Shown here one piece after another: positions 27,166 through 63,636 of a stretch of DNA of 64,000 nt. Every line of letters begins with the position of its first letter. Position 1 is the first letter of the stretch. A program made the position numbers and the translations under genes. The notes below the pieces were generated by a model. It ran no database searches. It was not told the DNA's origin and saw only the letters and a list, made by a program, of their open reading frames with translations. Source of the stretch: Nioella halotolerans (GTDB lineage: Bacteria > Pseudomonadota > Alphaproteobacteria > Rhodobacterales > Rhodobacteraceae); the NCBI GenBank assembly GCA_003428585.1, contig QVQC01000053.1, positions 120,741 to 184,740 on the forward strand, written 5' to 3'.

Positions 27166-28490
27166 TGTCGGAGGCTGCGCGGAACCGCCTGACCAAGGGG
27201 TTGACCGATCTGGCATTTCTGATCCTTGCCGCGGCAATCGTTTATTTCGCGCTGCGCTGGATGACCGCCGGGGTCGAGGCGATGATCGACCCGGTGACAC
27301 CCGGGCGCGGTGAAAGCTGGCCGCTTTGGGCGCAGATCGCGCAGTTGGTCTACCTGGTGCTTGCCAGCGTGCTGACCATCGGGGTGCTGTCGGTGCTGGT
27401 CTTCTTCCGCGTCCCGAACATGCGTGATGCGATCCTCGTGCCGGCGACCTCCATCGCGCTTGCGATCATCGTGACCGCGCTTGTCATCATGGCGATCGGG
27501 GAAAGCCCGCTGCAGGCCACGCAAGTGATGGTGCGTGGCGCGGTCGGGTCGGGCTACGGCTGGGGCTACACGCTGTTTTATGCCACCAATTTCATCTTCA
27601 CCGGGCTGGCCGTGGCCGTGGCCTTCCACGCCAAGATGTTCAATATCGGAGGCGAGGGACAGGCCGCGATCGGCGGGCTGGGCGTCGCCATCGTCTGCCT
27701 CTCGGTGCCGTGGCCGCACTGGAGCCTCGCACTTCTGGCGGCCACACTGGGCGCGGCCGCCTTCGGCGCGGCATGGGCGGCGATCCCCGCCTACCTGCAG
27801 GCCAAGCGAGGCAGCCACATCGTGATCACCACGATCATGTTCAACTTCATCGCCTCGGCGCTGCTGGTCTACCTGTTGGTGAACGTGTTCCGGGTGCCGG
27901 GCTCGATGGCGCCGGAAACCGCCCGCTTTGCCGAACCAACGCATTTGCCATCGGCCTATGACATCGCGCCATGGCTGGGCTTTCGACGCTCAACACCGCT
28001 GAATGTGTCGTTCCTCGTCGCCATTGCCGCCTGTGTCGGTGTCTGGCTGCTGATCTGGAAAAGCCGGCTTGGCTACGAGATCCGGGCCTTCGGTCATTCG
28101 CAGACAGGCGCCGTCTATGCCGGCATCCATCCGGTCCGCATCATCATGCTGGCGATGCTGATTTCCGGCGGGCTGTCGGGGATGATGGCGCTGAACGCGG
28201 TGATGGGCGAGGCGGAACGGCTGGTGCTCGACCCCGTTCAGGGCGCGGGATTCGTGGGAATCGCGGTGGCACTGATGGGCCGGTCGCACCCGGTGGGGGT
28301 GTTCCTCGCCGCGCTGTTGTTCGGGATGCTCTACCAAGGCGGGGCGGAGCTTGAATTCGAGATGCCCGCGATAAGCCGCGAGATGCTGCTGGTCATCCAG
28401 GCGCTTGTCATCCTGTTCACCGGGGCGCTCGACAACATGGTGCGGGAACCGATCGAACGGCTTTTCCTGCGCCTGCGGAAAGGAGCCTGA
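27165..28490 (+). CDS. Nucleoside ABC transporter permease 1
   Basis: A 441-residue polytopic protein of the BPD_transp_2 (RbsC-like) permease family, with about 10 hydrophobic segments. Recognisable blocks are FTGLAVAVAFHAKMFNIGGEGQAAIGGLG and KSRLGYEIRAFGHSQTGAVYAGI. It forms half of the membrane channel of the BMP-type importer. The N-terminus is longer than that of its partner. TGATG coupling joins it to the ATPase gene, and the second permease follows after 3 nt. Confidence 0.94.
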   Translation: MSEAARNRLTKGLTDLAFLILAAAIVYFALRWMTAGVEAMIDPVTPGRGESWPLWAQIAQLVYLVLASVLTIGVLSVLVFFRVPNMRDAILVPATSIALAIIVTALVIMAIGESPLQATQVMVRGAVGSGYGWGYTLFYATNFIFTGLAVAVAFHAKMFNIGGEGQAAIGGLGVAIVCLSVPWPHWSLALLAATLGAAAFGAAWAAIPAYLQAKRGSHIVITTIMFNFIASALLVYLLVNVFRVPGSMAPETARFAEPTHLPSAYDIAPWLGFRRSTPLNVSFLVAIAACVGVWLLIWKSRLGYEIRAFGHSQTGAVYAGIHPVRIIMLAMLISGGLSGMMALNAVMGEAERLVLDPVQGAGFVGIAVALMGRSHPVGVFLAALLFGMLYQGGAELEFEMPAISREMLLVIQALVILFTGALDNMVREPIERLFLRLRKGA

Positions 28491-40779: not shown

Positions 40780-41484
40780 ATGACCATTCATATCGGCGCA
40801 AAACCCGGCGAGATCGCGGAAACCGTCCTGATGCCCGGCGATCCACTTCGGGCGAAATGGGCGGCGGAAACCTTTCTGGAAAACCCAGTTTGCGTAAATG
40901 AAACGCGCGGTATGCTGGGGTTTACCGGCACGTGGCGCAATAGCCGCGTTACCATTCACGGCTCCGGCATGGGGATGGCGAGCCTGTCGATCTACGCCAA
41001 TGAACTGATCCGCGACTACGGGGCGAAAACCCTCATCCGCATCGGATCGGCCGGCGCGATGCAGCCGCATGTCGGGCTGCGCGATATCGTGCTGGCAATG
41101 ACCGCCTCGACCCTTTCTTCCCCGTCGCGCGGGATTTTCGGCGATCTGAACTTCGCGCCCTGCGCCGATTTCGGCCTGTTACAGGCGGCCCATGCGGCGG
41201 CCGCGCGCCATGACTGCACGACCCATGTGGGCGGGATCTATTCTTCAGACGTCTTTTACGACGAACGCCCTGATTTAAATGAACAAATGACGCGCCACGG
41301 GGTTCTGGCGGTGGAAATGGAAGCCGCGGAGCTTTACAACCTCGCCGCGCGCCACGACGCCCGGGCGCTTGCGGTTCTGACAATCTCCGACCACCTGCTG
41401 ACACAAGAGGCGCTGCCGTCGGGAGATCGCCAGTCCAGCTTTGCAGAAATGGTGGAAATCGCGCTGGAAGCTGCTTTCGCCTGA
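40780..41484 (+). CDS. deoD: Purine-nucleoside phosphorylase, DeoD type
   Basis: A 234-residue hexameric-type purine nucleoside phosphorylase that splits purine (deoxy)ribonucleosides with phosphate. Diagnostic blocks are [18 protein letters not shown], the phosphate/active-site [45 protein letters not shown] and [18 protein letters not shown]. The length matches E. coli DeoD. It probably salvages nucleosides, consistent with the BMP-type importer at 24.4-29.5 kb. It converges on the DUF1989 gene with a 5-nt gap. Confidence 0.96.
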
Positions 41485-41489
41485 ACAGC

Positions 41490-42329
41490 TCAGCGCCCGT
41501 GGCTACGGTCGTAGCCGTTTTTCGGCGGCGGGGTCCAGTCCGCTGTCAGGTCGGTGTCGAACACGTCCACCAGCAGCGGGTAACAGGCGGCCTTGTCAGA
41601 CGAATGCTCGGCCCCGCAATCGCCGCCGGGACAGGCCGACAAGGCGCCCAGAAGGTCAATTTCAGCAAGGAAATCAAGGTGATCTCCGGGGCGCACCGGG
41701 CTTGCCTTCATGAAATACTGGCCGGTGTCGCGGGTGAACCCGGTGCACATGAAGACATTCAGCACGTCATGCACATAGGGCTCCGCTTCCAATAGGCTTT
41801 TTCCCGTGGCATCGGCAAAGGCGCGGGTCAGGTTGGAATGGCAGCAATGGTGGTATTGGTCATCGCTCAAAAGGGTGTTCGTATAAGGGTCGCAACGGGT
41901 GCCGATCACGTCGTGAACCGAGCCGCCGAACGGGTCCACCCCGTACCAGTCAAGGCTATCGGCAAGGATCGTCGCCATCGGCCTGAGTCCCGGGAAGGAC
42001 GACCAGAGCCGATCCCCCGCGGTCACATGCGTCCCGTGCAGCGCGCGGGTCTTTCCAGAATAGAACCTTTCGGAAAAATCTTCTAGGTTCCATAGGTTGA
42101 GGTCGCCGACCTGCGGCCCCTCGATACAGGACACCCGGAACGCCTGCCCGGCTTTCACGGTGAAGGTAGCCGCGTCGCGCGGCGCGGCGCGAACCTCGTC
42201 AACCTTGCGCCAGCCGGCCCGCGCCCGCGCGCCTTGCGACTCCGGCAAACGCGGCAGCGCATCGTTCGGGTAGCCGATCACCGGTGGGACGGCGCGGCGG
42301 CGCGCGGCATCTTCAGGTTCTGTCACCAT
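41490..42329 (-). CDS. Urea carboxylase-associated family (DUF1989) protein
   Basis: A 279-residue DUF1989 protein. It has AGQAFRVSCIEGPQVGDLNLWN, HDVIGTRCDPYTN, QYHHCCHSNLTRAF and DVLNVFMCTGF; the clustered His and Cys residues suggest metal binding. Family members are often found with urea carboxylase or aminomethyltransferase genes, but none are near here. A general role in urea, formamide or amino-group metabolism is a guess from the family name. It is a single leftward gene. Confidence 0.85.
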   Translation of the reverse strand: MVTEPEDAARRRAVPPVIGYPNDALPRLPESQGARARAGWRKVDEVRAAPRDAATFTVKAGQAFRVSCIEGPQVGDLNLWNLEDFSERFYSGKTRALHGTHVTAGDRLWSSFPGLRPMATILADSLDWYGVDPFGGSVHDVIGTRCDPYTNTLLSDDQYHHCCHSNLTRAFADATGKSLLEAEPYVHDVLNVFMCTGFTRDTGQYFMKASPVRPGDHLDFLAEIDLLGALSACPGGDCGAEHSSDKAACYPLLVDVFDTDLTADWTPPPKNGYDRSHGR

Positions 42330-45906: not shown

Positions 45907-46047
45907 GGCGAACACCCTCTCAGGTTCATGCTAGGTGATATTGTCATCCCACATGAATAACGCGTTTTTCAAAGGAGTCACGGGGGCGCGGACCGATCGG
46001 GCCGGAAAAATGCATGAATTCCGGGTCGAAACGCCGCGGCCACCGGT

Positions 46048-46082
46048 TTCGTGATCACAAGATTTCTTTGCGTGATCACAAA
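46048..46082 (-). promoter_or_regulatory. Paired GTGATCAC operators upstream of sdhC
   Basis: Two perfect 8-bp palindromes GTGATCAC at 46051-46058 and 46072-46079, exactly 21 bp apart, each flanked by CGTGATCACAA. The same pair at the same spacing occurs upstream of sucC, and a single extended copy occurs upstream of lpd. The second copy overlaps the stop region of the upstream membrane-protein gene. Confidence 0.65.
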
Positions 46083-46486
46083 AATGAAATTGCGTATCCA
46101 ACAATGATGACCAAGAGCAGCACCAGCGAGACCCGCCATGGGGTGTGAACGCCGGTATCCTTTTCAAGCCGCCGCGTGTAGACGGTGATCGGCAGGCCGA
46201 TGATCAGCCCGACCAACACCGGGCGCAGGCGCACGATCAAATTTGACTCCGGCTCGATCATGTCGGTGAACAGGAAGATCGCCACCCCCGACGCCAGCAA
46301 CGCGGCGCCGAGGTTGCGCCCATGCGCGCGCAGGATCGTTTCCACGATCTCCGGCATCGGGGTTTCGGCGTTGTGCATCATTTCCTTGTGGTAAGGCGTC
46401 GGAAGCGAGCCGAACATGTACCGCGCGGCCATGAAAATGGTGCCAAGCGCGGCAAGGTAATAAAGCGCGATGGAAAGGGGAAACAT
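46076..46486 (-). CDS. Four-helix membrane protein upstream of sdhC, function unknown
   Basis: A 136-residue hydrophobic protein with about four membrane helices (MFPLSIALYYLAALGTIFMA, GAALLASGVAIFLF, LRPVLVGLIIGLPITVY, VSLVLLLVIIVGYAISFL). A short loop carries TPYHKEMMHNAETPMPEIVE. I do not recognise a named family. It points the same way as the sdh operon but is separated from sdhC by the operator region. A perfect 20-bp palindrome lies 18 nt upstream of its ATG, suggesting control by a dimeric repressor. Confidence 0.7.
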   Translation of the reverse strand: MFPLSIALYYLAALGTIFMAARYMFGSLPTPYHKEMMHNAETPMPEIVETILRAHGRNLGAALLASGVAIFLFTDMIEPESNLIVRLRPVLVGLIIGLPITVYTRRLEKDTGVHTPWRVSLVLLLVIIVGYAISFL

Positions 46487-46685: not shown

Positions 46686-47717
46686 TCAGACCGGGACCAG
46701 TGCCCAGTGGTCGAGATCGAGCAGCACCTCGGGCAGGTATTTGCCCGCGTCATCGCGCAATCTTCCCGGCACGCCGCCTTTCGTCGCCACCAGCCGAAGG
46801 CGCAGCGCACCAACGCCGGGCGCGGGCGTCTCGGCCTTGTCCAGAACCTCGCTCCATGCCGTGACAGTATCGCCCGCGAAGCAGGGATTGGCATGCGCAC
46901 CGCCGTTCAGCCCAGCAATCAGTTGCGCATTGGCCAGCCCGTTGAAGGACAGCGCCCGCGCCATGCTGATCACATGCCCGCCATAGATCAGCCGCCGCCC
47001 GTCGGGGCGCAGCGTCGCATCGAAATGCACCTTGGCCGTGTTCTGCCAGAGGCGGGTGGCCATCATGTGTTCGGCTTCCTCGACGGTGACACCGTCCACG
47101 TGGTCGATGATCTCGCCGATCTCGTAGTCGTCAAGGCGATGCGGCTCCCCGGCAAGGGCAAAATCGTAGCCGGTGAAATCAAGGCCCTGCGGCATCACCA
47201 GCTTCTCGGGCGCCACCACCCTGGCCAGATCGGGGATGACCGGTTCGGGCGCGGGCGCATCCGGGTCGGCCTTGCGCACCATGACCCAGCGCACATACTC
47301 CAACAGCGTCTCGCCACGCTGGTTCAGGCCGCGCGTGCGTACCCAGACCACCCCGGTCTTGCCGTTGGAGTTCTCCTTGAGGCCGATCACCTCGCTTTCG
47401 GCAGTGATCGTATCACCGGGCCAGAGCGGCGTCAGCCAGCGCCCCTCCGCATAGCCCAGATTGGCAACGGCATTGAGGCTGATATCGGGGACCGTCTTGC
47501 CGAATACCGTGTGAAAGGTGATCAGATCGTCAAGCGGACTGACCGGAAACCCGCAGGACTGCGCGAACGCATCCGAGGAATGCAGCGCGTGGCGCGCCGG
47601 GTAAAGCGTGTGATAGAGCGCCCGTTCCCCCCCCGACACGCTGCGCGGTACGGCGTGACGGATGGTTTCGCCGAGGCGATACGCCTCGAAGAAACGGCCC
47701 GGATTGGTCTTGGCCAT
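46686..47717 (-). CDS. mch: Mesaconyl-C1-CoA hydratase (beta-methylmalyl-CoA dehydratase), MaoC family
   Basis: A 343-residue protein with two hot-dog (MaoC-like) halves. The N-terminal half has HALHSSDAFAQSCGFPVSPLDD and WPGDTITAESEVI. The C-terminal half has EHMMATRLWQNTAKVHFDAT and YGGHVISMARALSFNG. In the ethylmalonyl-CoA pathway Mch hydrates mesaconyl-CoA to beta-methylmalyl-CoA, and 343 residues is the length I recall for the Rhodobacter enzyme. The start MAKTNPGRFFE has AGAAAGG upstream. It is the last gene of the mcl2 / NnrU-like / mch unit. Confidence 0.93.
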   Translation of the reverse strand: MAKTNPGRFFEAYRLGETIRHAVPRSVSGGERALYHTLYPARHALHSSDAFAQSCGFPVSPLDDLITFHTVFGKTVPDISLNAVANLGYAEGRWLTPLWPGDTITAESEVIGLKENSNGKTGVVWVRTRGLNQRGETLLEYVRWVMVRKADPDAPAPEPVIPDLARVVAPEKLVMPQGLDFTGYDFALAGEPHRLDDYEIGEIIDHVDGVTVEEAEHMMATRLWQNTAKVHFDATLRPDGRRLIYGGHVISMARALSFNGLANAQLIAGLNGGAHANPCFAGDTVTAWSEVLDKAETPAPGVGALRLRLVATKGGVPGRLRDDAGKYLPEVLLDLDHWALVPV

Positions 47718-47740
47718 GATCTGCCTTTCTCGTTCAGGGG

Positions 47741-48292
47741 TCAGCCGAAGGGCCAGTAGCCCAGCCAGGCATGGATATAGCCGATCACCGCCAGCAGGAT
47801 GACCGAGGCGACGGCGAACATGCCGTCCTTGGCCCATGTGCCGGGCGCGTCGGGTTGCCAGCGCGGTTCAGCGCGGTTGATCGCGATCATCTCGATCAGG
47901 GCCCAGAAAAACAGCCCGCCGAACAGCACGATAGAAGCGAGGTCGCCATTGACCAGAAGGTGTGCGACCGCCCAAAGCCCAAAGCCGGTCAGCATCGGGT
48001 GGCGCCAAGTGTTCAGCAGGCGGCCCTTGCGGGGGGCGGGGCTCATCATGAAGATCGCGATGAGGATCAGCAGGTTGTTGACATGCACCCCCCAAGACGG
48101 CGGGAACCAGACGAAGATGCCCGGTGCACCGCGATAGCCGATCACCATCAGCACGATGGAGGCGACGATCAGGAGGGCGACAATCCCCTTGCCCTTGTCG
48201 CCCATGGTGGCGCGCGCATCCGGTGCGATGCGTTTGAAAAGATGGGCCCCGGCCCAAAGCGCGATACCGAGGATCATGAGGGTGAAATGCAT
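47741..48292 (-). CDS. NnrU family membrane protein
   Basis: A 183-residue polytopic protein of the NnrU group. It opens MHFTLMILGIALWAGAHLFKRIAP and has RHPMLTGFGLWAVAHLLVNGDLASIVLFGG, the family core. About five or six membrane helices are present. NnrU was linked genetically to nitrite/NO reduction, and related isoprenoid-modifying proteins (15-cis-zeta-carotene isomerase) share the fold. Here it sits between mcl2 and mch, 36 and 23 nt away, so it is co-transcribed with ethylmalonyl-CoA pathway genes. Its role there is unknown. Confidence 0.87.
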   Translation of the reverse strand: MHFTLMILGIALWAGAHLFKRIAPDARATMGDKGKGIVALLIVASIVLMVIGYRGAPGIFVWFPPSWGVHVNNLLILIAIFMMSPAPRKGRLLNTWRHPMLTGFGLWAVAHLLVNGDLASIVLFGGLFFWALIEMIAINRAEPRWQPDAPGTWAKDGMFAVASVILLAVIGYIHAWLGYWPFG

Positions 48293-48328
48293 CTGCGTGG
48301 CTCCCGCTGGCTGGCTCTGCGTGCGACG

Positions 48329-49186
48329 TCAGCCCGCCCCGATCGCGGCGATGGCCTCCGCCTTGGCCAAGGTGGCCCGCGCGGTGGCGACATGCAAGTT
48401 CTCTACGATCTTGCCATCGACCACGGCGACCCCCTGCCCGCCTGCCTCGACCGCCTCGAAGGCGGCGATCTGGCGGTGGGCGAGGTCGATTTCCGCCTCA
48501 GACGGCGCGAATTCCGTGTTGGCGATCTCGATCTGGGCGGGGTGGATCAGCGTCTTGCCGTCGAACCCCATGTCGCGGCCCTGCGCGCATTCGGCGCGCA
48601 GCCCCTCGTCATCCTTGAAGGCGTTGTAAACGCCATCGACGGCGACGATCCCCTCCGCCTTCGCGGCCAGCAGGGCAAGGCCCAAACCCGTTATCAACGG
48701 CAGCCGGTCGGCGCGGAAGCGGGTGTTGAGATCCTTGGCAAGGTCATTGGTCCCCATCACGAAGCCCTGCATCCGCGGATGCGCGGCGATCTCGGCGGCG
48801 TTCAGCATGCCGCGCGGTGTTTCCATCATCGCCCAGATGGGCTTGTCGCCGACGAGGGCGGCCAGCGCCGCCACCTGCGCGGCGCTTTCCACCTTGGGCA
48901 GCAGCACCGCGTCGCAATCCATCGCGGCGGCGGCCCGGGCATCGGCGTCGCCCCACCGGGTATCCAGCCCGTTGATCCGCACGATCCGCATCCGGTGACC
49001 ATAGCCACCGGCGCCAAGCGCCTCGGCCAGCGTGGCGCGCGCCTTCTCCTTCTCCTCGACCGACACGGCATCCTCCAGATCAAAGATGATCGCGTCGACG
49101 GGTAGGGTTTTCGCCTTTTCCAGCGCCCGCTGTTTCGAGCCGGGAATATAGAGAACGGAGCGGTAGGCGCGCGCGGTCTGGTCCAT
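48329..49186 (-). CDS. mcl2: (3S)-malyl-CoA thioesterase (Mcl2-like; HpcH/HpaI/CitE family)
   Basis: A 285-residue CitE/malyl-CoA lyase-family TIM barrel. It has YRSVLYIPGSKQRALEKA, IIFDLEDAVSVEEKEKAR, VRINGLDTRWGD, the metal-binding MMETPRGMLNAAEIAAH and GFDGKTLIHPAQI. The Mcl1 malyl-CoA lyase is about 318 residues; this shorter form next to mch matches Mcl2 of Rhodobacter sphaeroides, which hydrolyses malyl-CoA to malate. A CitE-like lyase activity remains possible. The start MDQTARAYRS follows GGACGACAG. It is the first gene of the leftward mcl2-mch unit. Confidence 0.87.
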   Translation of the reverse strand: MDQTARAYRSVLYIPGSKQRALEKAKTLPVDAIIFDLEDAVSVEEKEKARATLAEALGAGGYGHRMRIVRINGLDTRWGDADARAAAAMDCDAVLLPKVESAAQVAALAALVGDKPIWAMMETPRGMLNAAEIAAHPRMQGFVMGTNDLAKDLNTRFRADRLPLITGLGLALLAAKAEGIVAVDGVYNAFKDDEGLRAECAQGRDMGFDGKTLIHPAQIEIANTEFAPSEAEIDLAHRQIAAFEAVEAGGQGVAVVDGKIVENLHVATARATLAKAEAIAAIGAG

Positions 49187-49268
49187 GTCTGTCGTCCTTC
49201 TTCCGAGGGGTCGGCGGCACAAAACACAAACCATGCCGCGAATGCAAGTTGCTTTATGCCGCAGCGTA

Positions 49269-51080: not shown

Positions 51081-51115
51081 TTTGTGATCACACATTTTCA
51101 ACCCGTGATCACAAA
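51081..51115 (+). promoter_or_regulatory. Paired GTGATCAC operators upstream of sucC
   Basis: TTTGTGATCACACA and CCCGTGATCACAAA hold palindrome cores at 51084-51091 and 51105-51112, exactly 21 bp apart and 110-139 nt before the sucC ATG. Spacing and sequence are the same as at the sdhC promoter. Confidence 0.65.
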
Positions 51116-51221: not shown

Positions 51222-52415
51222 ATGAACATTCATGAATACCAGGCAAAAGCCCTGCTTCGCGACTACGGCGCCCCGGTCAGCGATGGCCGCGTCGTTCTGA
51301 AGGCAGAAGACGCAAAGAACGCTGCCGGCCAGCTAGACGGCCCGCTCTGGGTCGTCAAGGCGCAGATCCACGCCGGCGGCCGCGGCAAGGGCAGCTTCAA
51401 GGAAGCCGAAGCGGGGGAGAAGGGCGGTGTCCGCCTTGCCAAGTCCGTGGAAGAGGCCGCCGACGAGGCCAAGAAGATGCTGGGCAAGACGCTTGTCACC
51501 CACCAGACCGGCCCGGTGGGCAAGCAGGTCGGCCGCGTCTATATCGAGGACGGCTCCGACATCGACCGCGAGCTTTACCTCGCCTTCCTCGTTGACCGGT
51601 CCAGCAGCCGCATTTCCATCGTCGCCTCGACAGAGGGCGGCATGGATATCGAGGAGGTGGCCGCGACCACGCCCGAGAAGATCCTGAGCTTCTCCATCGA
51701 CCCGGTGACCGGCTTCATGCCCTACCATGGTCGCCGCGTCGCCTTCGCCCTCGGACTGGAAGGCGCGCAGGTCAAGCAATGCGTCAAGTTGCTCGGCCAG
51801 CTTTACCAAGCCTTCACCGAGAAGGACATGGAGATGCTGGAGATCAACCCGCTGATCGTGATGAATGACGGCAATCTCAAGGTTCTCGACGCCAAGCTCG
51901 GCTTCGACGGCAACGCGATCTACCGCCACCCCGATATCGGCGAGTTGCGCGACACGACCGAGGAAGACCCCAAGGAACTTCAGGCCTCCAAGTACGACCT
52001 CAACTACATCGCGCTGGATGGCGAGATCGGCTGCATGGTCAACGGCGCGGGCCTTGCCATGGCGACGATGGACATCATCAAGCTGTACGGCGCGGAACCG
52101 GCCAACTTCCTCGACGTGGGGGGCGGCGCCACCAAGGAGAAGGTGACCGAGGCGTTCAAGATCATCACCTCCGACCCGCAGGTGAAAGGCATCCTCGTCA
52201 ACATCTTCGGCGGCATCATGCGCTGCGACATCATCGCCGAGGGCGTTATCGCGGCGGTGAAGGAGGTGGGGCTGGAGGTTCCGCTGGTGGTGCGCCTTGA
52301 AGGCACCAACGTGGACAAGGGCAAGGAGATCATCCGCTCCTCCGGCCTCAACGTGATCGCGGCGGACGACCTCAAGGACGGCGCCCAGAAGATCGTGAAG
52401 GCGGTGAAAGGGTGA
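51222..52415 (+). CDS. sucC: Succinate-CoA ligase (ADP-forming) beta subunit
   Basis: The 397-residue beta subunit of succinyl-CoA synthetase, which makes ATP/GTP and succinate from succinyl-CoA. The ATP-grasp domain starts [19 protein letters not shown] and has [15 protein letters not shown]. The C-terminal domain has [29 protein letters not shown] and [10 protein letters not shown]. The ATG at 51222 is preferred to an upstream codon because MNIHEYQ is the canonical start. It overlaps the following exported-protein gene by GTGA. Confidence 0.98.
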
Positions 52416-52909
52416 AGGCTGTGAGGTTTTTTCCGGCGCTTTCGGTCGCGGTGGGTCTTCCTTTCGCCGGTGCGGCGCACGCCCAACCGGACTGGCAAGA
52501 CCCTTCCGAATTCGGGCGTTTGGCGGAACAGGTCTGCCTCGATGGCGCCGCGATCCCCGAGAAAGCCGAGCGCATGGCCTTGATAGAACGGTCCTTCGGC
52601 ATGTCGCCGGGAGGCGAAGATGGGCCGGATGCGCCCGATCTCGTTTCCCCCGAAGGCATTTCCGCCGCATGGGAGCCGCAGTACGAGCCTGACATCTTTT
52701 GCGTTCTCACCGCGCCGCTGGATTTCTACGAGGCAGAAGACATCGCGGCGCTTGCCGATCAGCTGAACGGCTCCGGCAGCACACCCGAGGCCGCGCCTGG
52801 GGTATTCGGCCCGTTCGCACGCACTCTTTCCGATGGGCGCACCCTTCAACTTGCGGTCATTTCCGATCCCGCCGACGGCCTGCTCGTGGTCGGCATGATC
52901 GAAGACTAA
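52412..52909 (+). CDS. Exported protein of unknown function inserted between sucC and sucD
   Basis: A 165-residue protein with a signal peptide ([21 protein letters not shown], cut after AHA). The mature part is acidic and contains [21 protein letters not shown] and [12 protein letters not shown], with two cysteines. I do not recognise the family. It starts with GTG overlapping the sucC stop and ends 19 nt before sucD, so it is coupled to both. The pair it interrupts normally has adjacent genes whose products form one complex, so insertion of an envelope protein is unusual. Confidence 0.78.
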
Positions 52910-52928
52910 TCGAACCAAGGAACACGAC

Positions 52929-53810
52929 ATGTCAGTCCTCGTAGACGAAAACACCAAAGTCATCTGCCAGGGTTTCACCGGAAGCCAAGGCACATTCCAC
53001 TCCGAACAGGCCATCGCCTATGGCACCAAGATGGTCGGCGGCGTGACGCCGGGCAAGGGCGGGCAGACGCATCTCGACCTGCCCGTGTTCAACTCTGCCC
53101 ACGAAGCCAAGCACGCGACCGGGGCCAACGCCTCCGTCATCTACGTGCCGCCCCCGTTCGCGGCCGACTCGATCCTTGAAGCCATCGACGCGGAAATGGA
53201 GCTGATCGTGTGCATCACCGAAGGCATCCCGGTGCTCGACATGATGAAGGTCAAGCGCGCGCTGGAAGGGTCGAAATCGCGCCTCATCGGGCCGAACTGC
53301 CCCGGCATCATCACGCCCGACGCCTGCAAGATCGGCATCATGCCCGGCCACATCCACAAGCGTGGGTCCGTCGGCGTCGTGTCGCGATCGGGCACGCTGA
53401 CCTACGAGGCGGTGAAGCAGACCACCGATGTCGGGCTGGGCCAGTCAACCTGCGTGGGCATCGGCGGCGACCCGATCAAGGGGACCGAGCATATCGACGT
53501 GCTGGAATGGTTCCTTGCCGATGACGAGACCGAAAGCATCATCATGATCGGCGAGATCGGCGGTTCGGCAGAAGAGGACGCCGCGCAATTCCTTGCCGAC
53601 GAACGAAAGAAAGGCCGCTGGAAGCCGACCGCGGGCTTCATCGCCGGGCGCACCGCGCCTCCGGGCCGCCGCATGGGCCACGCGGGCGCCATCGTCGCCG
53701 GCGGCAAGGGCGGCGCCGATGACAAGATCGAGGCGATGAAATCGGCCGGGATCGTGGTTGCCGACAGCCCCGCCACGCTGGGCGAGGCTGTTCTGGCGGC
53801 GATCGGCTGA
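52929..53810 (+). CDS. sucD: Succinate-CoA ligase alpha subunit
   Basis: The 293-residue alpha subunit of succinyl-CoA synthetase. It opens [28 protein letters not shown], which binds CoA. It has [12 protein letters not shown] and [10 protein letters not shown], and the phosphohistidine is in [17 protein letters not shown]. It pairs with SucC (ATP-grasp) encoded just upstream. Its AAGGAACACGAC ribosome binding site follows the exported-protein gene. Confidence 0.98.
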
Positions 53811-53864
53811 CGGCGACCGCGACCGCCCAAGCATTGCGCACCAAGGCAAGGAGGAACCGAGACC

Positions 53865-54164
53865 ATGCGCAACCTGACCCCAGCGGCAGTGCTCGTCCTT
53901 CTTGCCGCCTGCGGTGCCGATCAAGGCCATGCGCCCCTACCCGACGATCCCTCGGCCCCCTTCCCGCTCGCCAACAGCACGGTCGTCGGCCAGCCCGCGC
54001 CCGGCGCGATCCTCGTCGAGACCACTCGTCCGCAGGCGACGAGGGCCGGCGTCCAGCGCGCCGCGCGCACGTGGTGCGGCGGCGCGGCGCAGGTCTCGCC
54101 GATCTCGGAAAATGTCGGCCTGATCGTGCCGCTGAGCCGGACTTGGCTGGTGCGATGCAGATAG
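53865..54164 (+). CDS. Small lipoprotein of unknown function
   Basis: A 99-residue protein with a lipoprotein signal ending LLAAC (TPAAVLVLLAACGADQ). The mature ~80 residues are Pro/Ala-rich, with a central Cys (RTWCGGAAQVSP) and a C-terminal Cys (LVRCR), which could pair. No family is recognised. It lies 54 nt after sucD and 150 nt before sucA with AAGGAGG upstream, so it rides in the suc transcript. Confidence 0.72.
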   Translation: MRNLTPAAVLVLLAACGADQGHAPLPDDPSAPFPLANSTVVGQPAPGAILVETTRPQATRAGVQRAARTWCGGAAQVSPISENVGLIVPLSRTWLVRCR

Positions 54165-54314
54165 CCGCCGCACACGTAAGCCGCGCCGCGCCCCGGCCAC
54201 GACGACCGGCCTGCCGAGGCAGGTCCGGCTATACAGGGGGAAACATCCTGTGACTCCCGCCCCCCGTGTCACCGCCGCGATGCGGCCCAGCAGTTCCGCC
54301 GGAGGGAATTGACC

Positions 54315-57278
54315 ATGACCGACCAAAGCCCCAACGACCAGTTCCACGCCTCAAGCTTCATGCAGGGCGCGAACGCGGCATACCTCGAACAGCTTTACGC
54401 GCAATATGCCAAGGACCCGAATGCGCTCGATCAGGCGTGGCGCGATTTCTTCGACCAGCTTGGCGACAGCGCGACCGATGCCACGGCGGAAGCCGCCGGC
54501 CCCTCCTGGGCGCGCGCCGACTGGCCGCCGCAGCCCGAGGATGACCTGACCGGCGCATTGACCGGCGAATGGCCCGCGTTCCAGGAGGAGGGCAAGGCTG
54601 CCGGCAAGAAGATCAAGGAAAAGGCGGCCGAGCAGGGCCTTGAAGTCACCGACGACGTGATCAAGCGCGCCGTGCTGGACAGTATCCGCGCGCTCATGAT
54701 GATCCGCGCCTACCGGATCCGCGGGCACCTTGTGGCAGATCTCGACCCGCTGGGCATGCGCGACCAGACCCCGCACCCGGAGCTTGACCCGAAAAGCTAC
54801 GGCTTCACGGAATCCGACATGGATCGGCCGATCTTCATCGACAACGTGCTCGGCCTTCAGGTCGCGTCGATGCGCCAGATCCTCACCATCGTGAAGCGCA
54901 CCTATTGCGGCACCTTCGCGCTGCAATACATGCACATCTCCGACCCGGAACAATCGGCGTGGCTGAAGGAACGGATCGAGGGGTTCGACAAGGAAATCCG
55001 CTTCACCCAGAACGGCCGCAAGGCGATCCTGAACAAGCTTGTGGAGGCCGAGGGCTTCGAGAAATTCCTGCATGTGAAATACATGGGCACCAAGCGCTTC
55101 GGCCTGGACGGTGGCGAGGCGCTGATCCCGGCGATGGAACAGGTCATCAAGCGCGGCGGCGCGCTCGGCCTCAAGGAGGTCGTGATCGGGATGCCGCACA
55201 GGGGCCGCCTGTCCGTGCTGGCCAACGTGATGGGCAAACCCTACCGCGCGATCTTCAACGAGTTTCAGGGCGGCAGCTTCAAGCCGGAGGACGTGGACGG
55301 GTCCGGCGACGTGAAATACCATCTCGGCGCCTCCTCCGACCGGGAATTCGATGGCAACACCGTGCATCTCAGCCTGACCGCGAACCCCTCGCACCTTGAG
55401 GCGGTGAACCCGGTGGTGCTGGGCAAGGCGCGCGCCAAGCAGGACCAGTTGAACGACAAGGAACGCCGTGCCGTGCTGCCGGTGCTGCTGCACGGCGACG
55501 CGGCCTTTGCCGGGCAGGGCGTGGTGGCCGAGGGCTTCGGCCTGTCGGGCCTGCGCGGGCACCGCACCGGCGGCACCATGCATATCATCGTGAACAACCA
55601 GATCGGCTTCACGACGGCGCCGCATTTCTCGCGCTCCTCGCCCTACCCCACCGATATCGCGCTGATGGTCGAGGCGCCGATTTTCCACGTCAACGGCGAC
55701 GACCCCGAGGCGGTGGTGCACGCCGCCAAGGTCGCCACCGAGTTCCGCCAGAAATTCGGCAAGGACGTGGTCATCGACATCTTCTGCTATCGCCGCTTCG
55801 GCCATAACGAGGGCGATGAGCCGATGTTCACCAACCCGGTGATGTATAACCGGATCAAGAGCCACAAGACCACGCTGCAGCTTTACACGGACCGCCTTGT
55901 CAAGGACGGGCTGATCCCCGAGGGCGAGATCGAGGACATGAAGGCCAGCTTCCAGTCCTACCTCAACGAGGAGTTCGACGCCGGCAAGGAATACAAGCCC
56001 AACAAGGCCGATTGGCTTGATGGGCGCTGGTCGCATCTCGACAAGAAGGGCGAAGAATACCAGCGGGGCGAAACCGCCATCAAGCCTGAAACCCTGAAGG
56101 AAATCGGCCGCGCCCTGACCACGCCGCCCGAAGGCTTCAAGCTGCACCGCACCATCGGCCGCCTGCTGGACAGCAAGAAGAAGATGTTCGAAACCGGCGA
56201 AGGCTTCGACTGGGCCACCGCCGAGGCACTGGCCTTCGGATCGCTCTTGACCGAGGGTTACCCGGTGCGCCTGTCGGGTCAGGACAGCACCCGCGGCACC
56301 TTCAGCCAGCGCCATTCCAGCCTCGTCGATCAGGAAACCGAGGATCGCTACTACCCGCTCAACCACATCCGCGAGGGGCAGGAACACTACGAAGCCATCG
56401 ACTCGATGCTGTCGGAATACGCGGTTCTGGGTTTCGAATACGGCTACAGCCTTTCCGAACCCAACGCCCTCGTGTTGTGGGAAGCGCAGTTCGGCGATTT
56501 CGCCAATGGCGCGCAGATCATGTTCGACCAGTTCATCTCGTCGGGCGAACGCAAGTGGCTGCGCATGTCGGGCCTTGTCATGCTGCTGCCGCACGGGTTC
56601 GAAGGACAGGGGCCGGAACATTCCTCCGCCCGGCTGGAACGTTTCCTGCAGCAATGCGCCGAGGATAACTGGATCGTTGCCAACTGCACCACGCCGGCCA
56701 ACTATTTCCACATCCTGCGCCGCCAGATCCACCGCGACTTCCGCAAGCCGCTGGTCCTGATGACGCCGAAATCGCTGCTGCGCCACAAGCTGGCCGTGTC
56801 GAAAGCCGAGGAAATGACCAGCGGGTCAAGCTTCCACCGGGTGCTCTGGGACGATGCGCAATACGGCAATTCGAACATGCAGCTGGTGCCCGATGACAAG
56901 ATCAAGCGCGTGGTGATGTGTTCGGGCAAGGTCTATTTCGACCTGCTGGAGGAACGCGACGCGCGCGGCATCGACGATGTCTACCTCTTGCGGCTGGAAC
57001 AGTTCTACCCGTTCCCGGCGCTCAGCCTGACCAAGGAACTGGAACGCTTCAAGCAGGCCGAGGTCGTCTGGTGCCAGGAAGAGCCCAAGAACCAGGGCGC
57101 GTGGAGCTTCGTGGAACCCAATATCGAATGGGTCCTCGGCCGTCTCAAGGCCAAGCATTCGCGCCCGCGCTATGTTGGGCGCAACTCTACCGCCTCGCCC
57201 GCCACGGGTCTGGCCAGCCAGCACAAAGCACAGCAAGCCGCGCTCGTGAACGACGCGCTCACCATCGAGGGGAATTAA
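54315..57278 (+). CDS. sucA: 2-oxoglutarate dehydrogenase E1 component
   Basis: The 987-residue thiamine diphosphate-dependent E1 that decarboxylates 2-oxoglutarate in the TCA cycle. The N-terminal arm has FMQGANAAYLEQLYAQYAKDPNALD. The core has IGMPHRGRLSVLANVMGKPY and the TPP-binding LLHGDAAFAGQGVVAEG through IIVNNQIGFTTAP. The C-terminal part has LPHGFEGQGPEHSSARLERFLQ and ENW-type blocks. ATG at 54315 has CGGAGGGAATT upstream. sucB follows after only 3 nt. Confidence 0.98.
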   Translation: MTDQSPNDQFHASSFMQGANAAYLEQLYAQYAKDPNALDQAWRDFFDQLGDSATDATAEAAGPSWARADWPPQPEDDLTGALTGEWPAFQEEGKAAGKKIKEKAAEQGLEVTDDVIKRAVLDSIRALMMIRAYRIRGHLVADLDPLGMRDQTPHPELDPKSYGFTESDMDRPIFIDNVLGLQVASMRQILTIVKRTYCGTFALQYMHISDPEQSAWLKERIEGFDKEIRFTQNGRKAILNKLVEAEGFEKFLHVKYMGTKRFGLDGGEALIPAMEQVIKRGGALGLKEVVIGMPHRGRLSVLANVMGKPYRAIFNEFQGGSFKPEDVDGSGDVKYHLGASSDREFDGNTVHLSLTANPSHLEAVNPVVLGKARAKQDQLNDKERRAVLPVLLHGDAAFAGQGVVAEGFGLSGLRGHRTGGTMHIIVNNQIGFTTAPHFSRSSPYPTDIALMVEAPIFHVNGDDPEAVVHAAKVATEFRQKFGKDVVIDIFCYRRFGHNEGDEPMFTNPVMYNRIKSHKTTLQLYTDRLVKDGLIPEGEIEDMKASFQSYLNEEFDAGKEYKPNKADWLDGRWSHLDKKGEEYQRGETAIKPETLKEIGRALTTPPEGFKLHRTIGRLLDSKKKMFETGEGFDWATAEALAFGSLLTEGYPVRLSGQDSTRGTFSQRHSSLVDQETEDRYYPLNHIREGQEHYEAIDSMLSEYAVLGFEYGYSLSEPNALVLWEAQFGDFANGAQIMFDQFISSGERKWLRMSGLVMLLPHGFEGQGPEHSSARLERFLQQCAEDNWIVANCTTPANYFHILRRQIHRDFRKPLVLMTPKSLLRHKLAVSKAEEMTSGSSFHRVLWDDAQYGNSNMQLVPDDKIKRVVMCSGKVYFDLLEERDARGIDDVYLLRLEQFYPFPALSLTKELERFKQAEVVWCQEEPKNQGAWSFVEPNIEWVLGRLKAKHSRPRYVGRNSTASPATGLASQHKAQQAALVNDALTIEGN

Positions 57279-57281
57279 CCG

Positions 57282-58814
<1,533 letters not shown>

Positions 58815-58875: not shown

Positions 58876-59211
58876 ATGCGCACAACGATAATTGGCTTGG
58901 CGCTCCTTGTTCTGTCTGCTTGCAATCCAACGACAGCCGCACTTGTAAGCGGACAACCCAATGCGGCACTGGACTTGGCTGCCGGAAGTGGAGCGGTGCA
59001 AAGGGATCAAAACGGCCAAGTGACTTTTCGCTATGTTTTTGCTGAGGACCATCTGAATGGGTTGGTCGAACCTGATCTTCAAGAAGAGACACGGCTAAAT
59101 TTTATTGGGCAATTCGTCGCTGAAAGAAATATTTGCCCCACGGGCTGGAAGATTGATAGCAAGTCAGACGTGTCAAACAGTCTATTGTACGAGGGCTCTT
59201 GCAGAGGCTAA
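58876..59211 (+). CDS. Low-GC putative lipoprotein
   Basis: A 111-residue protein with a signal peptide ending in the lipobox LSAC (IIGLALLVLSAC). The mature region is polar and contains VTFRYVFAEDHLNG, FVAERNICPTGW and a final Cys in YEGSCRG. Base composition is clearly less GC-rich than the surrounding suc genes, with many AT-ending codons. The family is unknown. It lies 61 nt after sucB with AAAGGAG upstream. With the next gene it forms a small foreign-looking patch between sucB and lpd. Confidence 0.7.
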   Translation: MRTTIIGLALLVLSACNPTTAALVSGQPNAALDLAAGSGAVQRDQNGQVTFRYVFAEDHLNGLVEPDLQEETRLNFIGQFVAERNICPTGWKIDSKSDVSNSLLYEGSCRG

Positions 59212-59268
59212 GTCAATGACATCTGGTGTTGCCTTTCAAGCGGCTCCCGCAACAGGGACGAGACTACA

Positions 59269-59496
59269 GTGGCCTTGGTCATGAGTTTCGGGCCGATTAG
59301 GAAAATCGGTCAACGGCTACGTAATTGGTGGCAGGGCGAGTTTATAGGTGAGAAGTATGAGGGACTATTCTTCATTCGTTTCGAGAGACATTGCACCGCA
59401 CGCGCAGCACGCAGGGTTTTGCAATTCTGGAAAGAAGAATGGAAATGGATTGTTGGTACACTTCTAGCGATAGCCGCTTTATTCGTCGCACTATGA
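59269..59496 (+). CDS. Low-GC small membrane-anchored protein
   Basis: A 71-75 residue protein that is basic and aromatic in its first part (RKIGQRLRNWWQGEFIGEKY) and ends in a hydrophobic helix (WKWIVGTLLAIAALFVAL). GTG at 59269 and ATG at 59281 are both possible starts. GC content is low for this genome. No family is recognised; the tail-anchor layout suggests a small inner-membrane protein. It is directly followed by the MAPEG gene. Confidence 0.55.
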   Translation: MALVMSFGPIRKIGQRLRNWWQGEFIGEKYEGLFFIRFERHCTARAARRVLQFWKEEWKWIVGTLLAIAALFVAL

Positions 59497-59514
59497 AGAA
59501 ATGAGCATCGTCAA

Positions 59515-59916
59515 ATGACCCCCGAACTCACCGCCCTCACCCTCGCAGCACTCCTTCAGGTCGTCCAATTCGGCCTCTACGCTGTGCCCGCGAACCTCGA
59601 ACTCGGACCGGGCTACACCATGTCCGCGCGGGACCGCGAGCCGTCAAAGCAAATGTCCGAGCGCACCGCCCGCCTTGGCCGTGCGCTCAACAATCACTTC
59701 GAGGGGCTGATCCTCTTCAGCATTGCGGTCGTGGTGGTCACGCTGTCGGGCAGTTCCACCCTTCTGACTGCCGCCTGCGCCTGGGCCTACCTTGGCGCGC
59801 GTCTCCTCTACATCCCTGCCTATGCCTTCGCATGGACGCCGGGCCGGTCGTTGATCTGGGCCGTGGGGCTGCTGGCGACCATCATCATGCTGCTCGCGGC
59901 GCTGGTCGCAAGCTGA
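59515..59916 (+). CDS. MAPEG family membrane protein
   Basis: A 133-residue four-helix membrane protein of the MAPEG (membrane-associated eicosanoid/glutathione metabolism) family. Visible blocks are RTARLGRALNNHFEGLILFSIAVVVV and ACAWAYLGARLLYIPAYAF, matching the conserved N-x-x-E and R-x-x-Y pattern. Bacterial members may have glutathione transferase or peroxidase activity; the physiological substrate is unknown. Composition returns to the host GC level here. Confidence 0.87.
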   Translation: MTPELTALTLAALLQVVQFGLYAVPANLELGPGYTMSARDREPSKQMSERTARLGRALNNHFEGLILFSIAVVVVTLSGSSTLLTAACAWAYLGARLLYIPAYAFAWTPGRSLIWAVGLLATIIMLLAALVAS

Positions 59917-60085
59917 CCCCACCGAATTTTCGTCGAAAATTCGAAACAGAAAAATCTTCGCGAAGATCTTTCAGCGCCCCGTCCCCGCGCGCTTTCAATT
60001 GCGATTTGGCCCCCGGCCCGGCATACTGCCCCAAACCGCGCCGACAAGAGCGCACGGCAAGAGCAGTCACACGAAGGGCAAGCCC

Positions 60086-61081
60086 ATGCGCAGCCGCTTT
60101 GGAACCCGCACCGTCCTGTCCTGCATGAAGAACGAGGGGCTCTTCCTTCTGGAATGGGTCGCTTATTACCGGCTGCTCGGCACCGATCATATCGTCGTCA
60201 TCAGCAACGATTGCACCGACGGCACTGACCTGATGCTCGACCGGTTGCAGGAACTTGGCCATGTCCGCCATATCCGCAACCGCGGCTACGAGGCCGACAG
60301 CCCGCAGATCCACGGACTGCGCAGGGCGATGGCGGAGGTGCCGGAAGTCCGCGATGCCGACTGGCTGCTGCATGTCGACAGCGACGAGTTTCTCAACGTG
60401 TTTTACGGCGATCACCGGCTCGACGACCTGATCGGGGTCGTGCAGGGCTTCGATGCCTGCGCCATCGCCTGGCGCCCCTTCGGCGACAGCGGTCACAAGA
60501 CATGGCCCGGCGGCAACGTGCTGGAAAACTTCACCCGCTGCGACCGGAAACCGATCTGGGCCAGCGCCTTTCACAAGGCGCTGTTCCGGCCCGCGAAATT
60601 CCAGACCATGACGGTGCACATGCCCAAGCACCCCAAGCGCCCCGACGCCACCCAGTGCAACACGCTGGGCGAAGCGATCGACACCACCGCGCTTTACACC
60701 ATGGCCCATGAACGCCATCGCGGCATGGACCGGGCAAAACTGACATGGGACGGGGCCTGTCTCAACCACTACACGATCAAGTCCGAGGATCTCTTCCTGC
60801 TCAAGAACGACCGCGGCGACGGCGCCGACCGCGGCGGCACCAAGCGCTATCTCAACTCCACCTTCCACCGGCGTTACAACACCAACCGCGCCGAAGACAC
60901 CTCCATCCTCCGCCACCTGCCCGACTTGCAGGACCGCTTGACCGGGTTGCGCGCGGACCCCCTGCTCGCCACGCTGGAACAAGCCGCCACCCTTTGGTGG
61001 GACAACCGCCGCGCCCGCGTCCTGACGCCGGAGCGCATCGCCGAATGGACGCTGCCCAGCCAAGAGGACTCCGCCGCATGA
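60086..61081 (+). CDS. Glycosyltransferase family 2 (DUF23-like), tandem copy 1
   Basis: A 331-residue cytosolic GT-A-type glycosyltransferase. It opens TVLSCMKNEGLFLLEWVAYYRLLG and has ISNDCTDGTDLMLDRL and the DxD-type metal site HVDSDEFLNV. AIAWRPFGDSGHKTWPGG and HMPKHPKRP follow. This is the pattern of the Glyco_tranf_2_4/GT92-like proteins common in Rhodobacterales. The acceptor is unknown. Its stop overlaps the start of a close paralogue by ATGA. Confidence 0.87.
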   Translation: MRSRFGTRTVLSCMKNEGLFLLEWVAYYRLLGTDHIVVISNDCTDGTDLMLDRLQELGHVRHIRNRGYEADSPQIHGLRRAMAEVPEVRDADWLLHVDSDEFLNVFYGDHRLDDLIGVVQGFDACAIAWRPFGDSGHKTWPGGNVLENFTRCDRKPIWASAFHKALFRPAKFQTMTVHMPKHPKRPDATQCNTLGEAIDTTALYTMAHERHRGMDRAKLTWDGACLNHYTIKSEDLFLLKNDRGDGADRGGTKRYLNSTFHRRYNTNRAEDTSILRHLPDLQDRLTGLRADPLLATLEQAATLWWDNRRARVLTPERIAEWTLPSQEDSAA

Positions 61082-62085
61082 TCAGCCACCACGGGGACAA
61101 GGTCGTCCTCTCCGCAATGCGCAACGAAGGCATGTTCCTGCTCGAATGGATCGCCTATTACCGGGCGATCGGCTTCGACAAGGCGGTGATCGTCACCAAC
61201 AACTGCACCGACGGCACCGATCTGATGCTGGATCGGCTGGAGCAGATGGGCTACGCGCGCCACCTGCGCAACGACTGGCGCGGCGCGGGCCGCCCGCAGA
61301 TGGAAAGCCTGCGCATCGCGCGCGAGGATGTCGACGATCTCGTGGCCGCCGAATGGTGCCTGCATGTGGACAGCGACGAGTTTCTCAACGTCACCTGCGG
61401 CGGGGGCCATGTCGATGACCTGCTTGACCTGATGCCGCCAACCGAGGCCATCGCCATCGCCTGGCGCCCCTTCGGCAATAACGGCCACGCAAAATGGCCC
61501 GGTGGGCTGGTGATCGAGAATTTCACAAGGGCGCGGGCCGAACCCGCCTGGAACACCTGCCTGCACAAATCCATGTTCAAGGCGCGGAAGTTTTCCACGA
61601 TTTCCATCCATATGCCCAAGCACCCGACCCAGCCGAAGGTGCGCCAGCACAACACGCGCGGCACCGCGATCACCACGGATTCGCTGTTCAAGCCCGCCCA
61701 TGAACGCCACCGCAAGATGGAACGCGCGGAACTGACCTGGGACAACGCCCAGATCAACCATTACACGATCCGGTCGGACGATACCTTCCTGATGAAGAAT
61801 GACCGTGGAACCGGCAACTCGAAGGAGCTTGGCCGGCACTTCATGCATTCGCTCTTCTACCAGCGGCTCAACCGCAACGATGTCGAGGAAACCTCGATCC
61901 TGCGCCTGGTCCCCCGTGTCCGGGAAGAGCTGGAGAAACTGCGCGAAGACCCGATCCTGCATCACCTCGAACAGGCCGCCCTGCATTGGTTCCTTGACCG
62001 CCGCGACCGGATCCTCACGCCCGAGCAGATCGCCGAATGGACCGCCCCACCGGAGGATGAAGGCATGGCGGAGGCGGCAGAGTGA
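61078..62085 (+). CDS. Glycosyltransferase family 2 (DUF23-like), tandem copy 2
   Basis: A 335-residue paralogue of the preceding protein with the same block order: VVLSAMRNEGMFLLEWIAYYRAIG, VTNNCTDGTDLMLDRLEQMGY, HVDSDEFLNVTCGGGH, IAIAWRPFGNNGHAKWPGG and ILTPEQIAEWTAP at the end. The near-full-length similarity and ATGA overlap show a tandem duplication with divergence. The two may act on different acceptors or as a pair. The lpd promoter begins at or just inside its 3' end. Confidence 0.87.
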   Translation: MISHHGDKVVLSAMRNEGMFLLEWIAYYRAIGFDKAVIVTNNCTDGTDLMLDRLEQMGYARHLRNDWRGAGRPQMESLRIAREDVDDLVAAEWCLHVDSDEFLNVTCGGGHVDDLLDLMPPTEAIAIAWRPFGNNGHAKWPGGLVIENFTRARAEPAWNTCLHKSMFKARKFSTISIHMPKHPTQPKVRQHNTRGTAITTDSLFKPAHERHRKMERAELTWDNAQINHYTIRSDDTFLMKNDRGTGNSKELGRHFMHSLFYQRLNRNDVEETSILRLVPRVREELEKLREDPILHHLEQAALHWFLDRRDRILTPEQIAEWTAPPEDEGMAEAAE

Positions 62086-62112: not shown

Positions 62113-62247
62113 AATATCCATTCCGAAAATCTATATCTGGAATCCGGCCCGTTTTTCCGCCTCGCTCGAATTTTGGTTGACCTGACGGGGCGGGGCCCGC
62201 ATTCCCTAGGGAAACGGCCCCGAATTCACGACCCAAGGAGACCCGAA

Positions 62248-63636
62248 ATGGCAAGCTACGACGTGATCATCATCGGCAGCGGCCCCGGCGGCTATGTCTG
62301 CGCCATCCGCTGCGCGCAGCTTGGCCTCAAGACCGCCTGCGTCGAGGGGCGCGAAACGCTCGGCGGCACCTGCCTCAATATCGGCTGCATCCCTTCCAAG
62401 GCACTTCTTCACGCCACCCACCAACTGCACGAGGCCGAACACAACTTCGCGAAAATGGGCCTGAAGGGAAAATCGCCGTCTGTCGACTGGAAACAGATGC
62501 TCGCCTACAAGGACGACGTGATCGGCCAGAACACCAAGGGCATCGAGTTCCTGTTCAAGAAGAACAAGATCGACTGGCTCAAGGGCTGGGGCACGATTCC
62601 GGAACCCGGCAAGGTCGAGGTCGCGGGCGAGGTGCACGAGGCCGGGAACATCGTCATTGCCACCGGCTCCGAACCCAGCTCGCTGCCCGGCGTCGAGATC
62701 GACGAGAAGATCGTCGTCACCTCCACCGGCGCGCTGGAATTGCCGAAAGTGCCGAAAAAGATGGTGGTGATCGGCGGCGGCGTGATCGGGCTGGAAATGG
62801 GGTCGGTCTATGCCCGTCTCGGCACGGAGGTCACGGTGATCGAGTTCCTCGACGCCATCACCCCCGGCATGGATGCCGAGGTGGCCAAGACTTTCCAGAA
62901 GATCCTGAAAAAGCAGGGGATCAATTTCATCATGGGCGCCGCCGTGCAATCGGTGGAAACGCTCAAGACCAAGGCCAAGGTCAATTACAAGCTGCGCAAG
63001 GACGACAGCGAAGATCAGGTCGATGCCGATGTGGTGCTGGTCGCGACAGGGCGCAAACCCTATACGGACGGGCTGGGCCTCGATGCGCTCGGGGTCGGGA
63101 TCGCCAAGCGCGGCCAGATCGAGGTCGACGATCACTGGGCGACAAACGTCAAGGGCCTCTACGCCATCGGCGACGCGATCACCGGCCCGATGCTGGCCCA
63201 CAAGGCCGAGGATGAAGGCATGGCCGTGGCCGAGGTTCTGGCCGGCAAGAATGGCCACGTCAATTACGGCGTCATCCCCGGCGTGATCTACACCGCGCCA
63301 GAGGTCGCCGCCGTCGGCAAGACGGAGGAGGAGCTGAAGCAAGAAGGACGCGCCTACAAGGTGGGCAAGTTCTCCTTCATGGGCAACGGCCGTGCCAAGG
63401 CCGTGTTCCAGGGCGACGGTTTCGTGAAACTTCTGGCCGACAAGGAAACCGACAGGCTTCTGGGCGCGCATATCATCGGCCCGATGGCGGGTGACCTGAT
63501 CCACGAGATCTGCGTGGCGATGGAATTCGGCGCCTCGGCGGAGGATGTCGCGCTCACCTGCCACGCGCATCCCACCTTCTCGGAGGCGGTGCGCGAGGCG
63601 GCGCTGGCCTGCGGCGATGGCGCGATCCACGCCTGA
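62248..63636 (+). CDS. lpd: Dihydrolipoyl dehydrogenase (E3)
   Basis: The 462-residue flavoprotein disulfide reductase that re-oxidises dihydrolipoyl groups with NAD. It begins [24 protein letters not shown] (FAD site). The redox disulfide is C42-LNIG-C47 in [17 protein letters not shown], the NAD site is [20 protein letters not shown], and the catalytic His-Glu is in [15 protein letters not shown]. Placement after sucAB suggests it serves the oxoglutarate dehydrogenase complex. AAGGAGACCCGAA precedes the ATG. Confidence 0.98.

Follow-up and report, generated by a model that had tools for sequence, protein, structure and literature searches.

Paired palindromes before sdhC and sucC of Nioella halotolerans as a predicted double operator for AkgR

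A 64,000-nucleotide stretch of Nioella halotolerans contig QVQC01000053.1 (hereafter the window) carries two copies of the palindrome GTGATCAC before the sdhC operon, a second pair before sucC, and a single copy before lpd, with the copies of both pairs exactly 21 bp apart, start to start (Table 1). From the comparisons below, we consider it very probable that such a pair serves as a double operator for AkgR, a GntR regulator with an FCD ligand domain that would activate these tricarboxylic acid (TCA) cycle genes from upstream. The sites, their spacing and conservation, the probable ortholog, its co-occurrence with the pair, and the helical phase come from the present analysis, and the regulator, the motif, and the activating role are taken from published papers. 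A sequence-only reading of the window had described both pairs and the lpd copy as an operator shared by three TCA-cycle promoters, with paired copies two turns apart, which was borne out. It had also spoken of one unassigned regulator, which was not: the motif (PMC6365646) and the target set (PMC4344238) are those of AkgR (RSP_0981). An operator that had been left open is now assigned to a known regulator. That regulator, its motif, and its targets were already known, and what is added here is a new set of predicted AkgR sites.

Occurrence and conservation of the pair

The window holds seven copies of GTGATCAC, compared with a mean of 0.90 and a maximum of 3 in 100 dinucleotide shuffles. The two copies away from sdhC, sucC, and lpd start at 27822 and 30895, within open reading frames (ORFs) that match Pfam families (PF02653, a permease, and PF09608), in agreement with the earlier remark that other copies lie in coding frames. 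Across the whole genome (3,498,974 bases), the single word is not rare, at 144 copies, so it is the pairing, flanks, and position that mark the site, rather than the word itself. Exact 21-bp pairs were found twice in the genome, both times within the window, and not once in 200 first-order Markov sequences of window length; pairs with two mismatches occurred at seven further places in the genome. The flanked word TNGTGATCACNA (T/A at the second flanking base), a pattern that by design misses the suc copies, was found at ten places in the genome. Eight of these fall within ORFs of 120 amino acids or more and were not counted as sites; the other two mark sdh and lpd, and the lpd one is also overlapped by ORFs. 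At lpd, a one-mismatch second copy, GTGATCGC, at 62082 was considered as a pair partner and rejected, being present in one of the nine relatives compared (L092). The far sdhC palindrome contains the TGA stop of a minus-strand ORF (46076-46486, 136 amino acids), which has no family match, has no tblastn match in stretches around sdh and suc from 20 relatives, and may not be a gene.

In a family sample of 120 genomes, one per genus, two copies of GTGATCAC with 3-33 bases between them were present in 106 genomes, and a pair at exactly 21 bp in 100. Summed over these genomes and 31 spacings, 176 of 209 pairs were at 21 bp, and at least 14 of the other 33 were at 20 bp. A class-wide sample gave the 21-bp pair in 6 of 385 genomes, four of them among the five sampled from the same family and two among the 380 outside it. 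The AkgR-type TCA-cycle switch is common to most of the 120 sampled family genera.

Twenty stretches (~20 kb), picked for holding two pairs, all had one pair before sdhC and the other before sucC. Among the matches listed, there were 67 further stretches around 20-22-bp pairs, and a script placed 62 of these before sdhC or sucC. The pair in L277 adjoins sucC with one mismatch and was missed by the script's pattern, and the L276 pair could not be placed. In L225 (G042:C16), a 21-bp pair (701 and 722) stands before a fumarase-like gene (Lyase_1), which is likely a further AkgR target in that genus. The two 21-bp pairs outside the family are in L287 and L286 (G266:C189; 992 and 1013), the latter directly before a different GntR-FCD gene, with, by eye, a TonB-type receptor on the other side and an SDR-like gene behind.

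The many genomic copies of the word, and the eight of ten flanked copies inside ORFs, might suggest that the repeats arose by chance or reflect coding words (GTG ATC ACC). This explanation, which we hold to be barely credible, does not fit with 100 of 120 genomes keeping the spacing and position, nor with 62 of 67 further pairs standing before sdhC or sucC; for the pairs, it is refuted by the two exact genomic pairs, their absence from the Markov sequences, and the family-wide conservation.

The earlier proposal that 21-bp pairing stands out from other spacings and is conserved before sdh, suc, and lpd was upheld in part: 21 bp was far commoner than other spacings, and the pairs stood before sdhC and sucC family-wide, but the lpd site was not constant. 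Among the akgR loci evaluated (best 80 of 426), only 14 had lpd in range, and GTGATCAC was found 111-142 bp before lpd in nine of these. The lpd site is a lineage feature and not a constant third member. In these loci, lpd with its own site lay 1.3-3.2 kb from sucB (eight loci), and lpd without a site 0.6-2.2 kb (four loci). In the window, ~3.4 kb parts lpd from sucB, with a glycosyltransferase-like gene in 58876-62085.

AkgR as the probable regulator

The palindrome GTGATCAC is named as a motif among AkgR binding sites, and AkgR is called a transcriptional activator (PMC6365646). In Rhodobacter sphaeroides, the GntR regulator RSP_0981 is predicted for RSP_0967-6 (suc), RSP_0974-6 (sdh), and RSP_0965-62 (AKGDH) (PMC4344238). 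The sequence-only reading had thought a GntR/FCD-type protein compatible with the site, and this is supported, the published motif and targets being those of a GntR-family regulator. The N. halotolerans genome has seven FCD matches, one of which, P0002 (G000:C38:270-932, minus strand), has GntR and FCD domains. A stretch 79% identical to P0002 lies 0.8 kb from sdhB in L070 (G051), and an 81% relative lies 2.3 kb from sdhB in L069. In L070, the genes run lpd-sucB-sucA-sucD-sucC-mdh-...-sdhCDAB-GntR, an order that fits the RSP numbers of PMC4344238. By identity and neighborhood, P0002 is a probable AkgR ortholog, and its closest relatives among the best 80 of 426 are from a Rhodobacteraceae metagenome-assembled genome and Nioella. 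In the primary AkgR paper (mBio 2015), AkgR is reported to activate several TCA-cycle genes directly.

A regulator encoded beside sdh in the window was also considered and rejected, the neighbors there being a PNP_UDP_1 phosphorylase-like gene (40780-41484) and a gene for a DUF1989 protein (41490-42329). L092, which encodes a protein 93% identical to P0002, matches the window end at 7005-6232 and the beginning of contig C38 at 6227-5262. Since the two adjoin in L092, akgR most likely follows lpd in convergent orientation, just past the window end. Given how few akgR loci have lpd in range, this would be an arrangement of the nearest relatives.

The features of the R. sphaeroides AkgR regulon recur here, namely, the GTGATCAC operator, a probably orthologous GntR-FCD regulator in the genome, co-occurrence of regulator and operator (six exceptions among 120 genomes), and sites before sdh, suc, and AKGDH genes. 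The AKGDH genes are represented by lpd through its single site; sucA and sucB count only as members of the suc gene row. Compared with R. sphaeroides, akgR here most likely lies beyond lpd rather than near sdhB, lpd stands apart from sucB with its own single site, and akgR has a half self site.

The best P0002 matches in the 120 genomes fell into two groups, at E <1e-81 (103 genomes) and E >1e-56 (17 genomes), and the ortholog cut was placed between them. Ortholog and 21-bp pair occurred together in 96 genomes, the ortholog alone in 7, the pair alone in 4, and neither in 13 (p 1.6e-9, n=120). With 20-bp pairs included, the counts became 101, 2, 4, and 13 (Fisher 2.7e-12). A number of points weigh against the assignment to AkgR. 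The ortholog cut was placed after the E-values were seen, and the Fisher values are too strong because the genomes are related. The pair was present without a clear ortholog in 4 of 17 genomes (G019, G033, G096, and G114, of which G114 is 100% complete), and an ortholog without an exact 20- or 21-bp pair in 2 of 103 (G061, which has a 22-bp pair, and G040, in which two 21-bp pairs each carry one mismatch). With P0003, an FCD protein used as a control, the counts were 87, 2, 18, and 13 (p 1.8e-7), and since P0003 also correlates with the pair, shared ancestry contributes. The link between AkgR and the pair persists both in genomes without P0003 (p 1.0e-5) and in those with it (p 0.0026).

In place of AkgR, a different GntR/FCD paralog that recognizes the same sequence could bind the sites. 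This is made thinkable by the seven FCD matches, by the pair directly before a different GntR-FCD gene in G266, and by an AkgR-like Pseudomonas protein, 32% identical to AkgR, that is proposed to use GTGATCAC (PMC6365646). Regulators of this PS417_07240 type belong to deoxyribonate clusters and differ from AkgR in that the regulator heads a catabolic cluster, in Pseudomonas and Burkholderia, for which one palindrome is described (PMC6365646). We consider a paralog quite improbable, as P0002 is the one protein with relatives that are near sdh or lpd and have a self site, and as P0003, the one compared out of six other FCD proteins, co-occurs less well with the pair.

The CRP consensus is TGTGA-N6-TCACA, and that of FNR is TTGAT-N4-ATCAA. 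The half words TGTGA/TCACA do resemble CRP half sites, but the sdhC, sucC, and lpd sites have neither the 6-bp spacer of CRP nor the FNR sequence, and a CRP/FNR-family site was rejected from the sequence and has a negligible chance of being correct. The earlier reading had set CRP aside for the same missing spacer. R. sphaeroides is also not predicted to have CRP-analogous proteins (PMC4344238). CceR (RSP_1663, LacI family) is, like AkgR, predicted on sdh, as well as on mdh, but its predicted motif is the inverted repeat [A/G/T]GTT-N6-8-AAC[A/C/T] rather than GTGATCAC (PMC4344238).

Helical phase and proposed activation

The helical phase between the pair and a conserved -35-like element appears to be kept, with shifts mostly of whole turns, which is possibly a new observation. 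A single GTGAC[AT] was found 20-110 bp downstream of the pair in 36 of 47 sdhC promoters. It starts at 57-60 in 32 of these 36; the remaining four have it at 48, 69, 70, and 80, all at most 1.5 bp from 58 plus whole turns of 10.5. Related genomes may share one inherited shift, so that shift counts need not equal independent shifts. The N. halotolerans sdhC promoter, at 69 bases, is one helix turn above the common distance. A GTTGAC-like element follows the lpd site, beginning 66-68 bases downstream in 8 of 10 loci and, two turns less, 47 in the other two. Measured to the hexamer, the distances at sdhC and lpd share a single ladder of whole turns.

Held-out models were used for the promoters outside the common classes. 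When an sdhC model built from 34 common-distance promoters was tried on the other 13, five had best matches scoring above 10, located at 58, 48, 69, 70, and 80 (one with a second match at 81), and eight had weak matches or none. For sucC, the training set comprised 41 promoters, 40 with a distance of 41-43 and one with 53; among 16 others, best matches above 6 were at 41-43 in five and at 32, i.e., 10 bp shorter, in three. These stronger matches are in line with the whole-turn pattern.

Several results count against a kept phase and the activation proposed from it. Eleven of the 47 sdhC promoters had no GTGAC[AT] (nine) or several (two), and 8 of the 16 held-out sucC promoters had only weak matches, some of them misfitting. 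An unconverged free alignment put 3 of 47 sdhC and 7 of 57 sucC promoters outside the main and whole-turn classes. A scan with the sigma-70 consensus returned no match in the sdh and suc stretches, and the -35 elements are predictions from conservation. The weak and misfitting sdhC and sucC promoters slightly lower the odds both of the double operator and of the obligate pair described below.

One AkgR dimer would bind each GTGATCAC, and because the copies lie 21 bp (two turns) apart, with the spacing kept at 20-21 bp, two dimers would sit side by side on one DNA face. Standing ~45-70 bp upstream of the predicted -35, they would contact RNA polymerase and activate sdhCDAB and the suc genes; in this lineage lpd is set apart from sucB and would use a single site of its own. 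GTGATCAC was also found at most 90 bp upstream of the aligned akgR start in 68 of the 80 loci, compared with 0.68 expected from the mean density, and AkgR may perhaps repress itself through this copy. The 12 loci without it include the nearest relatives of the N. halotolerans genome (L092-L096), in which the site is altered, and in N. halotolerans itself (L007, start 932) it is reduced to the half site TGTGATC. The helix phase speaks for a protein-protein contact with the polymerase; the upstream position speaks for activation, which is what has been reported for AkgR. We infer the binding, the pair of dimers, the polymerase contact, and the effector. The center of the downstream palindrome would lie roughly between -85 (sucC) and -108 (N. 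halotolerans sdhC), as in class I activation. In class I activation by E. coli CRP, a dimer sits upstream of the promoter, and activity is kept when the site is moved by whole turns. The upstream dimer and the whole-turn shifts would be alike here, while the protein is unrelated, the motif is another, and the site is double.

AkgR might instead bind the pair and repress, or act both ways depending on its ligand. FCD regulators are often repressors, and an akgR self site lies close before its own start codon. Repression of the TCA-cycle genes nevertheless seems unlikely, because the sdhC, sucC, and lpd sites mostly stand upstream of the predicted -35 and not over the promoter, and because AkgR is called an activator (PMC6365646).

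In a stricter form of AkgR activation, to which we give an even chance, AkgR would be an obligate dimer pair locked two turns apart and facing RNA polymerase, and the pair would have moved by whole turns only during the evolution of the family, at sdhC, sucC, and lpd (single site) alike. Strict pairing and the whole-turn rule were not found in a literature search, with the primary AkgR paper beyond that search's reach. If true, AkgR would be, among GntR/FCD proteins, a class I activator that works as two phased dimers. A phase rule that holds would offer a direct test of transcription activation by GntR/FCD proteins, and the strict double-site pattern could then be used to search for AkgR targets, the pair before a fumarase-like gene in G042 being a first example.

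Target genes and their surroundings

Coordinates are collected in Table 1. Gene names were checked, and the start codons of sdhC, sucC, and lpd were chosen by the analyst within longer mechanical ORFs.

Table 1. Predicted AkgR operators, promoter elements, and target genes in the window
Feature	Positions	Strand	Remark
sdhC near operator (predicted AkgR), GTGATCAC	46051..46058	-	sdhC start codon 144 bp from pair
sdhC far operator (predicted AkgR), GTGATCAC	46072..46079	-	21 bp from near copy
sucC far operator (predicted AkgR), GTGATCAC	51084..51091	+	
sucC near operator (predicted AkgR), GTGATCAC	51105..51112	+	109 bp 5' of start codon
lpd single operator (predicted AkgR), TTGTGATCACAA	62102..62109	+	138 bp 5' of start codon
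Predicted -35 hexamer of sdhC, GTGACT	45976..45981	-	predicted from conservation; 69 bases after pair
Predicted -35 hexamer of lpd, TTGACC	62177..62182	+	inferred
sdhC-sdhD-sdhA-sdhB, target operon	45906-42510	-	gene names checked
sucC, sucD, sucA, sucB, target genes	51222..58814	+	two unassigned ORFs in between
lpd (dihydrolipoyl dehydrogenase)	62248..63636	+	

At 46686-49234, we observed a hydratase-like gene (RipB/2-methylfumaryl-CoA hydratase models, below the cut-off) and a CitE/malyl-CoA-lyase-like gene. Genes of these two kinds occupy the interval from sdh to mdh-suc, both here and in each of the 20 stretches from relatives.
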